Positions 23,630 to 60,987 of a stretch of 64,000 nucleotides of DNA are shown here, piece by piece. Origin of the DNA: Parvibaculum sp. (GTDB taxonomy: Bacteria > Pseudomonadota > Alphaproteobacteria > Parvibaculales > Parvibaculaceae); NCBI RefSeq assembly GCF_030651915.1, contig NZ_JAUSBV010000005.1:1116001-1180000 (forward strand). Direction: 5' to 3'. A model generated the notes under the pieces. The model saw only the letters and a list, made by a program, of their open reading frames with translations. It searched no databases and had not been told where the DNA came from. Made by a program: the position numbers and the translations under genes. The first letter of the stretch is position 1; each line of letters opens with the position of its first letter.

Positions 23630-25084
23630 TCAGGCGACCTCGAAATCCTCCCAGACCGGCTCGCGCATATCGGCCTCGAACTTCTCATAGGTCCATGGCC
23701 ATGAGGCGATGTTGCCATGCGGGTCGATGTACCAGCTCTGGCAGCCGGTCGCCCAGACCGTGTCGGGGAGCTTGGCGCGCACCGCTTCGTTGAAGGCCTG
23801 CGCGGCTTCGCGTTTCGGCGCGATCTCCGACACGTTCCCGTCCCGGAGCTTCAGAATCAGCTTGAGCGCGAAGTTGAACTGGTTTTCGGCCGTCAGCAGC
23901 CAGGAGAAATTTCCGATCGGGCTGTTCGGTCCGCCGATCATGAACCAGTTGGGAAAATCGGGCACGGTGACGGCCTTGTAGCCTTCGTTGCCCTTGGCCC
24001 AGGCGGCGTCCATCGTCTTGCCGCCGCGCCCCGTCACTTCCATCGGCCGGAACAGCTGATGCGTGTTGAAGCCGGTCGCCAGCACGATCACGTCGAGCGG
24101 ATGAAGCCGGCCGTCTTTGGTGCGGATGCCGTCGCGCTCGAAGCGTTCGATCCCTTCTGTCACCAGCTCGGCATTGGGCCGCTGCAGCGCCTCGTAGAAA
24201 TTGTCCGACAGGATCATGCGCTTGCAGCCGACCGCATAGCTCGGTGTCAGCTTGGCGCGCAGCACGGGGTCGGCGACGCGGGCGAGATTTTCCTCACAGG
24301 CCGTCACCATCGCCCGATAGGCGCCCGGATTGGCGCCGACGATCGCGGCGGCGAATTTCGAATTGTTCTCGAAGGAGATGCGCTGATATTCCTGTTCGAG
24401 CAGCGCCGGATCGGCGCGGTAGAGCGCCTTCTGTTCCTCGGGGATCGGTGCCTGCGGCAGCGGCAGAATCCATTGCGCCGTACGCTGAAAAAGCGACAGA
24501 TGCGCCACCTCGCCGACCACCGCGCCGACAATCTGCGTCGCCGTCGAGCCGGTGCCGATCACGCCGACGCGTTTGCCCGCGAGCGAGACCTCGTCCTTCC
24601 AGCGCGCGGTGTGAAACGCCTCGCCGTCGAAATCGTCGAGACCCGGAATATCGGGCATGACCGGGTGATGCAGAATGCCGGTCGCGGTGATCACCGCATC
24701 GAAAGCGCCCTGATCGCCCTTCGATGTTTCGAGATGCCAGTGGCGGTCGCGCCAGTCGGCGCGCGTGACCTCGTGCCCGTAGCGGATCGAGGCCTCGACA
24801 TTATGCTTGCGCGCCACATCCTTCAGGTAATCGAGAATTTCCGTCCCCGGCGCGCAGACGCGGCTCCATTCGGCATTGGGTTCGAAGGAATAACGATAGC
24901 CGTGCGAGGGCACGTCGCAGGTGACGCCCGGATAGCGATTGTCGCGCCAGGTGCCGCCCAGCGTGTCGGCCTTCTCGTAGATCGTCACATCCTCGATGCC
25001 GGCCTCGCGCAATTTGATCAGCGCCATGATGCCGGAGGCGCCGGCGCCGATGATCGCGATACGGAGTTTTCTGGCGCGCGTCAT
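23630..25084 (-). CDS. Flavin-containing / Baeyer-Villiger-type monooxygenase
   Basis: FAD and NADPH dependent monooxygenase of 484 residues. First Rossmann motif IAIIGAGASGIMAL near residue 9; second GVIGTGSTATQIVG near 175. FDGEAFHTARWKD between them fits FxGxxxHxxxW, the Baeyer-Villiger fingerprint, although the residue after Trp is Lys rather than Pro/Asp. ATGFNTHQLF is the C-terminal ATG motif. It probably inserts oxygen into a ketone or heteroatom. A second such gene lies 201 bp upstream on the same strand, separated by the repeat element described below. Confidence 0.9.
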   Translation of the reverse strand: MTRARKLRIAIIGAGASGIMALIKLREAGIEDVTIYEKADTLGGTWRDNRYPGVTCDVPSHGYRYSFEPNAEWSRVCAPGTEILDYLKDVARKHNVEASIRYGHEVTRADWRDRHWHLETSKGDQGAFDAVITATGILHHPVMPDIPGLDDFDGEAFHTARWKDEVSLAGKRVGVIGTGSTATQIVGAVVGEVAHLSLFQRTAQWILPLPQAPIPEEQKALYRADPALLEQEYQRISFENNSKFAAAIVGANPGAYRAMVTACEENLARVADPVLRAKLTPSYAVGCKRMILSDNFYEALQRPNAELVTEGIERFERDGIRTKDGRLHPLDVIVLATGFNTHQLFRPMEVTGRGGKTMDAAWAKGNEGYKAVTVPDFPNWFMIGGPNSPIGNFSWLLTAENQFNFALKLILKLRDGNVSEIAPKREAAQAFNEAVRAKLPDTVWATGCQSWYIDPHGNIASWPWTYEKFEADMREPVWEDFEVA

Positions 25085-25138: not shown

Positions 25139-25285
25139 CCGAAAGCGGGGATAAGTTCCGGTTATCCCCGCCTTTGAGAGGCCTCAAAAGCGGGGACAAG
25201 TTTTTTTCGACGCCCCGCCACGGTCATTTATGACAGTTTTATGACAGTTTCGTGACAGAGGGGGGTCTGCAGCGGTTTTTTGCTG

Positions 25286-25288
<3 letters not shown>
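25139..25288 (-). repeat. Dispersed intergenic repeat, copy A (62-bp core plus TTATCCCCG boxes)
   Basis: Core 25227-25288, read on the minus strand: TGACAG at its first bases (overlapping the stop codon of the upstream monooxygenase), an A run, a C run, then three CTGTCA boxes ending at 25253, 25242 and 25231, an exact 11-bp period. It matches the second copy at 60847-60908 without gaps, about 51 of 62 bases by hand count. Beyond the core are GGGGACAAG (25192-25200) and a perfect dyad GCGGGGATAA-N7-TTATCCCCGC (25145-25171). The block AACTTATCCCCGCTTTCGG is shared with copy B. It fills most of the 201-bp gap between the two monooxygenase genes. Function unknown. Confidence 0.8.
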
Positions 25289-26920
<1,632 letters not shown>

Positions 26921-60846: not shown

Positions 60847-60987
60847 TGACAGCGAAAAAGGCTCAAATACCCCCCTCTGTCACAAAACTGTCATAAAACT
60901 GTCACAAACGAGGATAAGTTTGTTCCGTGTACGGAGCGATCGACAATTTATCCCCGCCTGAAAATAAACTTATCCCCGGTTTCGGGA
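60847..60987 (+). repeat. Dispersed intergenic repeat, copy B (62-bp core plus TTATCCCCG boxes)
   Basis: Core 60847-60908: TGACAG (60847), A run, CCCCCCT, then CTGTCA at 60877, 60888 and 60899 (11-bp period). The first box pair forms a perfect stem TTTGTGACAG/CTGTCACAAA (60843-60852 with 60877-60886). Further on: GAGGATAAGTTT (60910-60921), ATTTATCCCCGCC (60946-60958) and AACTTATCCCCGGTTTCGG (60967-60985), the last nearly identical to a block in copy A at 25139-25157. It lies between the convergent PAS and TetR genes. A further small dyad CGGGA/TCCCG (60983-60999) follows. Confidence 0.8.

Follow-up and report, generated by a model that had tools for sequence, protein, structure and literature searches.

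Tandem Pho box-like arrays with a linked second motif are dispersed over the Parvibaculum chromosome

Species of one Parvibaculum clade carry, scattered over the chromosome, an element in which three CTGTCA-type boxes stand in tandem at an 11-bp period, with copies of a second motif, ACTTATCCCCG, close by. In the genome that contains the 64,000-nucleotide stretch analyzed here (the window) the element occupies 70 loci, which are more evenly spaced than random placement gives and mostly directed toward the replication origin. We propose a composite protein-binding element that recurs chromosome-wide, in which three tandem PhoB-type half-sites (YGTCA boxes at an 11-bp period with A-rich spacers) would make up one part. 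The other would consist of ACTTATCCCCG-type sites, between one and several per copy, located mostly 3′ of the boxes and presumably for a second protein. The copies, mostly intergenic, placed about every 45-65 kb and mostly origin-facing, may serve as fixed anchors or boundary points of chromosome organization, perhaps coupled to phosphate through PhoB, rather than as controls of neighboring genes. This reading of a chromosome-wide PhoB-type element with an architectural role, drawn from sequence comparison, is a tentative one, to which we give somewhat less than an even chance.

Composition of the element

The window corresponds to positions 1116001-1180000 of contig C8 in an assembly of 3,498,796 bases and 11 contigs (G000), and it contains two copies. 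The minus strand of 25288-25227 aligns without gaps to the plus strand of 60847-60908, and a recount of the alignment gave 51 identities in 62 bases, in agreement with the first-pass annotation. Both copies were confirmed to hold the three CTGTCA boxes described there, repeating every 11 bp exactly; the four CTGTCA-N5-CTGTCA pairs of the window resolve into two triplets, and none of 100 dinucleotide shuffles yielded four. In copy 1 the boxes, located from the sequence and the alignment of the copies, occupy 25231-25258 of the minus strand, with a C-tract and a T (25259-25265, minus strand) immediately 5′ of box 1. A variant of the second motif, TTGTCCCC, backed by motif enrichment, lies on the 3′ side of the array (25192-25199, minus strand), and of two TTATCCCC motifs, likewise backed by enrichment, one is on the array strand (25147-25154, minus) and one on the opposite strand (25162-25169, plus). 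The neighbors of copy 1 are two FMO-like monooxygenase genes on one strand (23630-25084 and 25286-26920; genes were called by codon score, with a simple script for which the window served as training data). Copy 2 lies between convergent PAS_5 and TetR genes, with its boxes, again three at an 11-bp period, at 60877-60904, the C-tract and T at 60870-60876, a TTATCCCC motif at 60948-60955 (also from enrichment) and another, inside ACTTATCCCCG, at 60970-60977, all on the plus strand. The C-tract (CCCCCT) is lineage-specific: it precedes box 1 in 65 of the 68 G000 copies and at the four loci read in G026, as against 2 of 54 arrays in G001, a related species assembled as one 3.59-Mb contig. Most per-copy counts for G000 cover 68 of its 70 loci, with L067 and L083 omitted. 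These two (C8:86753 and C8:796697, respectively) have G001-type spacers (TCGAA, TCGTT, CTGAA) and no C-tract, as if they were older copies spared by a genome-wide change.

The 11-bp period would place the boxes on one face of the helix, in the manner of arrays of protein-binding sites, and the sequence evidence supports this earlier suggestion. The first-pass annotation had also pointed to an inverted box, TGACAG, separated from the first CTGTCA by 24 nt. It is present in both window copies (25283-25288, minus strand, overlapping the stop codon of an FMO-like gene; 60847-60852, plus strand, from the alignment of the copies), but its place is not conserved, the 24-nt distance being exact in only 10 of the 68 G000 copies; the stem-loop appearance is therefore not part of the core of the element. 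An RNA hairpin or terminator was rejected on the same count together with that for G001, where TGACAG occurs anywhere between -60 and -8 in 8 of 54 arrays. A search of the window against Rfam at the gathering threshold returned tRNA only.

Among the 8-mers found near the arrays, those of the ACTTATCCCCG type were the strongest neighbors in both G000 and G001. Across the whole of G000, 62 of 68 copies of ACTTATCCCCG are no more than 350 bp away from an array, against 1.06 expected. For 1.165 Mb of G001 the same distance takes in 108 of 147 matches to TTRTCCCC, most of them 3′ of the array. At least one TTRTCCCC falls between -100 and +300 of 58 of 68 arrays in G000 and 44 of 54 in G001. The motif was also present in 20 of 21 pieces labeled as array species versus 3 of 18 labeled as array-less, these pieces being short, picked around array or phoB loci and in some cases taken twice from one species. 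The conserved core of the element is the three boxes with nearby ACTTATCCCCG motifs. TTATCCCC may resemble the DnaA box; among the papers listed by a literature search for its meaning, none appeared relevant. Several arrays (for example L031, L052 and L120) have a palindrome similar to TCCGTGTACGGA in their vicinity, and TGTACGGA is ~30-fold enriched near those of G001.

Copy number, spacing and orientation

Exact box triplets gave 73 matches at 70 distinct loci in G000 and the reversed pattern gave one, a control that is not independent for unanchored box patterns in that a reversed array partly matches itself. The element had been read from the window as dispersed rather than locally duplicated, and the genome-wide search for further copies bears this out: the box spacing is kept at 70 scattered loci, most of which have the same gene neighbors in a second species. 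A local duplication is ruled out, and the condition named as refuting, a lack of further copies or mere remnants of one recent duplication, does not hold.

The loci are over-dispersed, with a mean gap of 46.9 kb and a CV of 0.542 versus 0.934 (sd 0.106) for random placement; none of 10,000 random sets was as low, and no gap was shorter than 10 kb where 11.5 were expected. Adding five one-mismatch sites, one of which is the pstS operator, gave a CV of 0.56 (again 0 of 10,000). When decayed arrays were sought in 20 chosen stretches (gaps and orphan motifs; 305,574 bases), none with at least 16 of 21 consensus matches was found. At one locus of G000, L037, two arrays lie 125 bp apart (C4:65912 and 66037), of which the second lacks the C-tract and has spacers that have diverged. 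The 54 array clusters of G001 have a mean gap of 66 kb and a CV of 0.58 versus 0.97 (0 of 10,000). For G014, also a single contig, the site list is incomplete, its boxes having drifted; with that list the CV was not significant (p 0.29), and a single gap shorter than 30 kb was seen versus 9.4 expected (0 of 10,000).

The CTGTCA strand is directed toward the origin in 41 of 54 G001 arrays (p 0.00018), with the origin placed by inference at parS (2.003 Mb) and the terminus from gene orientation. This orientation opposes the bias of the genes, 642 of 1,103 of which, as called, are co-directional with the fork. In G000, where contig directions were taken from the gene order of G001 (C3 and C9 unplaced, L067 and L083 not included), 47 of 66 arrays are origin-directed (p 0.0008). 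The corresponding count from the incomplete G014 list, 25 of 38, was not significant (p 0.07). Such a bias raises the prospect of polar fork control, in which occupied arrays would slow or pause forks arriving from the 3′ side, for example at low phosphate: the arrays mostly face the fork, counter to the gene bias, in both G001 and G000, and even spacing would catch forks anywhere. However, 13 of the 54 G001 arrays face the other way, the orientation in G014 lacks significance, and we know of no PhoB-type fork barrier; we regard fork control by itself as decidedly unlikely. A broader proposal, that the stress regulator PhoB was co-opted to label the entire chromosome and that fork-facing, evenly spaced PhoB arrays and the ACTTATCCCCG sites of a second protein might together form phosphate-responsive domain boundaries or fork pause sites, is unlikely. 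Were it true, DNA compaction or replication would be tied to phosphate supply.

Site systems that organize chromosomes have come to light singly, and each is known from few lineages. Nucleoid occlusion (Noc, SlmA) employs tens of protein-binding sites over the chromosome. The arrays resemble these in being spread sites and differ in being direct repeats and in lying also near the inferred terminus (in G001 at 12.7, 83 and 3,576 kb), whereas Noc and SlmA sites are excluded from the terminus region, according to a published account (PMC4786541). The same account gives the FtsK-orienting KOPS as GGGNAGGG, enriched toward ter, and describes matS as over-represented in one domain, Ter (PMC4786541). 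With KOPS the arrays share an orientation bias along both replichores, but they are 28-bp arrays of other sequence about every 50 kb, and near-even spacing was found rather than a GGGNAGGG-type octamer enriched toward dif. MatP/matS is likewise a site-specific system, for a chromosome domain; the arrays, unlike matS, are chromosome-wide. Their profile is an unusual one, combining the grammar of a stress operator with near-regular ~50-kb spacing, origin-facing polarity and positions conserved even within coding sequences. No prior description of the element was found among the papers listed by searches of the open-access literature, and the data suggest that the arrays are an undescribed way of marking or organizing a bacterial chromosome.

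Distribution and orthologous positions

A relaxed three-box pattern matched 18 of 27 Parvibaculum genomes, and its reversed control none of the 27. Fourteen of these genomes have 12-49 matches (array species) and four, G002, G010, G012 and G021, have one each (array-poor species). Among 385 sampled Alphaproteobacteria 10 match; two of these are Parvibaculum, and the other eight have one site apiece. In a four-protein tree the 14 array and four array-poor species form one clade with a support of 100; the array-poor species are nested inside the array clade, their exact place being weakly supported, and monophyly of the array species was not rejected (AU p 0.159). Because G010 retains two intact exact arrays at G000-like places, beside genes that also adjoin G000 arrays (L112 and L119, matched by eye), secondary loss in the four-species sub-clade appears more likely than late gain. 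One Parvibaculum clade with arrays and a sub-clade with nearly none offer a pattern of gain and loss by which the participating proteins could be traced.

Of the 68 G000 arrays, 52 share a homologous flanking gene with a G001 array, although for a few of them the match depends on just one gene farther away. Among 48 pairs matched more strictly, the 18 box positions are identical, agreement in the spacers ranges from 0.04 to 0.94 and that in the upstream flanks (-60 to -10) from 0.23 to 0.46. Full agreement of the boxes in these pairs follows by construction, both sides having been found through exact boxes; what does not is the presence of many exact arrays at matching places despite near-chance flanks. 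Orthologous positions span species whose RNase III is about 57-98% identical to that of G000. Three in-register GTCA boxes lie at rnc-era in 11 of the 27 genomes, and in three of the 14 array species (G008, G014 and G024) box 2 is damaged with boxes 1 and 3 kept; the remaining 13 genomes have none. Of the 12 readable array species, 11 have three boxes in an extra loop of mutY and the twelfth, G025, has two and a broken third, and several carry TTRTCCCC motifs there as well; none of the 12 readable array-poor or array-less species has the triplet (G008, a partial match, and G022, with no match, are left out of these readings). Three arrays, L041, L073 and L077, are inside coding sequences in G000 and also in G001. 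The coding sequences concerned are those of a putative molybdenum-cofactor enzyme, identified by eye, and of a citrate synthase and a MutY-like protein, both identified by Pfam; the G000 and G001 gene sets come from related species and so are not independent evidence. From this conservation it seems that the array positions have been maintained by selection on the DNA. One intergenic array, L085 (C8:879341 in G000), is inverted in place relative to the same array at 2541954 in G001.

Retention of this kind bears on whether the arrays could be a mobile repeat, spread in a transposition-like manner with target immunity and a replication-linked orientation and then passively retained. The change of spacers and C-tract across the whole genome of one lineage does resemble homogenization, and the mutY loop looks like an insertion. 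But no conserved boundaries exist outside the boxes and motifs, the boxes are kept where the flanks are near chance, and positions are orthologous across species as far apart as those above, and this is the least probable of the explanations that we weighed. REP and BIME elements lie outside genes, frequently just after a gene or in the space that separates two convergent ones, and REP sequences are palindromic. The arrays share this extragenic placement at gene 3′ ends and in convergent regions but have a direct-repeat core and orthologous positions, and some are intragenic; judged by that core and those positions, they differ from REP or MITE repeats, which are palindromic or inverted and lack orthologous positions.

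Pho-box grammar and the candidate binder

The first-pass annotation knew of no named family with this layout. That claim is not supported: two papers (PMC4415409, PMC3465305) describe the Pho box as an 11-nt unit with CTGTCAT at its core, repeated directly. The arrays share with it the 11-nt direct repeats, the CTGTCA core and the A-rich spacers, and the same layout is found at pit in the same species. A pit gene was found in 17 of the 27 Parvibaculum genomes, with three in-register boxes upstream in all 17. The sole matches in G021 and in G012 lie directly upstream of a gene for a PHO4/PiT-family phosphate transporter. Of the eight single matches outside Parvibaculum, two are placed in the same way, one of them in reverse orientation. 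In Sinorhizobium meliloti, phosphate starvation represses orfA-pit, which has a Pho box just upstream of its start, as reported in a Rhizobium leguminosarum paper (PMC3131613).

The pit operator and the arrays also drift together. Scored against array matrices from six hand-chosen species (those of G000 and G013 built from 14 and 17 listed arrays), the assignment of pit operators to the matrix of their own species ranked second of 720 permutations; four of the six scored best in their own matrix and the other two in that of another species. The C-tract is present at the pit operator too in G000 and G026. At the pstS operator GTC units stand 11 bp apart in all 13 readable genomes, including G002 and G012. 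One PhoB per genome scored above the model cut-off in 24 of 27 genomes. A clade-specific PhoB paralogue was sought and rejected, none lying above the cut-off; among the matches listed, the best other protein scored 234.6 bits versus at least 354.4. PhoB, or a regulator of the PhoB type, is the likely binder of the arrays because of the Pho-box grammar, the layout at pit in 17 of 17 genomes and the co-drift of pit operator and arrays. Binding of PhoB in head-to-tail arrays would be the most likely arrangement, and binding by another regulator of the same specificity less so.

The four array-poor species retain the pit operator, and two of them, G002 and G012, also a PhoB above the cut-off; PhoB alone therefore does not explain the arrays, and a further factor, perhaps the binder of ACTTATCCCCG, is probably part of the system. 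That G002 and G012 lost nearly all arrays yet kept PhoB and the pit operator, as if some other factor had been lost, might instead mean that the boxes are bound by a different tandem-site protein, PhoB-like in specificity only, and that the arrays are unrelated to phosphate. Against this stand the co-drift of pit operator and arrays, including the C-tract that the pit operator carries in G000 and G026, and the lack of a second PhoB-like protein above the cut-off among the matches listed, and we consider a separate binder about as improbable as fork control. Across 24 PhoB sequences (G022 is not among them) no residue separated array from array-less species, and the DNA-binding domain is nearly unchanged between species with different boxes.

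The arrays could instead act on the genes next to them, whether as promoters, as sites for a repressor or, where they follow a gene, as roadblocks that terminate transcription. The earlier description had the copies beginning at gene 3′ ends, which holds as a tendency: in only 17 of 68 G000 copies does box 1 start no more than 30 bp past the stop codon of a gene on the same strand. These 17 would suit local regulation, as would two arrays that follow tRNA genes, one (L072) that is the pit operator itself, and the enrichment in convergent regions (25 of 64 intergenic matches in G000, where two loci, neither convergent, are counted twice, and 17 of 50 in G001, versus 15.9% of G001 intergenic length). 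Matches are scarcer than expected in the divergent regions of G000 (10 of 64, p 0.009); for G001 the count, 10 of 50, was not significant (p 0.12). However, the element [CG]TAG[CG], used as a proxy for the promoter, follows the boxes in 15 of 17 pit operators versus 1 of 68 G000 arrays, that one being L072, and none of 54 in G001. Even spacing is not predicted by local regulation, and the flanking genes identified (RNase III, MutY, citrate synthase and monooxygenases) have no common theme, so that regulation of neighbors is quite unlikely. By this proxy the arrays do not sit at a promoter that they control, and with the pit promoter element absent, convergent regions enriched and spacing even, they are not ordinary Pho operators. 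They differ from the Pho box also in coming as some 70 even copies, mostly off promoters, with linked ACTTATCCCCG and an orientation toward the origin; in E. coli, ChIP located 43 sites of PhoB, of which 20 fall within coding regions (PMC3465305).

The main rival is titration of PhoB by decoy sites, in which the arrays would absorb phosphorylated PhoB and thereby sharpen or delay the starvation response, their positions mattering little. About 70 Pho-type sites against few promoters, and arrays that co-drift with the pit operator, fit such a role, and decoy sites are able to alter regulator responses (PMC9725139). Even spacing, origin-facing orientation and a linked second motif are not predicted by it, and site-by-site orthologous retention exceeds the need of a decoy pool; we judge titration unlikely. 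An architectural role is favored over pure titration, for which neither polarity nor even spacing would be required. Should PhoB prove to be the binder, phosphate sensing would be linked directly to chromosome structure or replication, and the arrays would provide a natural test of how site spacing matters. One difference in PhoB itself was observed, a K-to-R change in the region of the recognition helix (RLRKAL to RLRRAL), which occurs only in G000, G026, G001 and G013, the strict-CTGTCA species examined.
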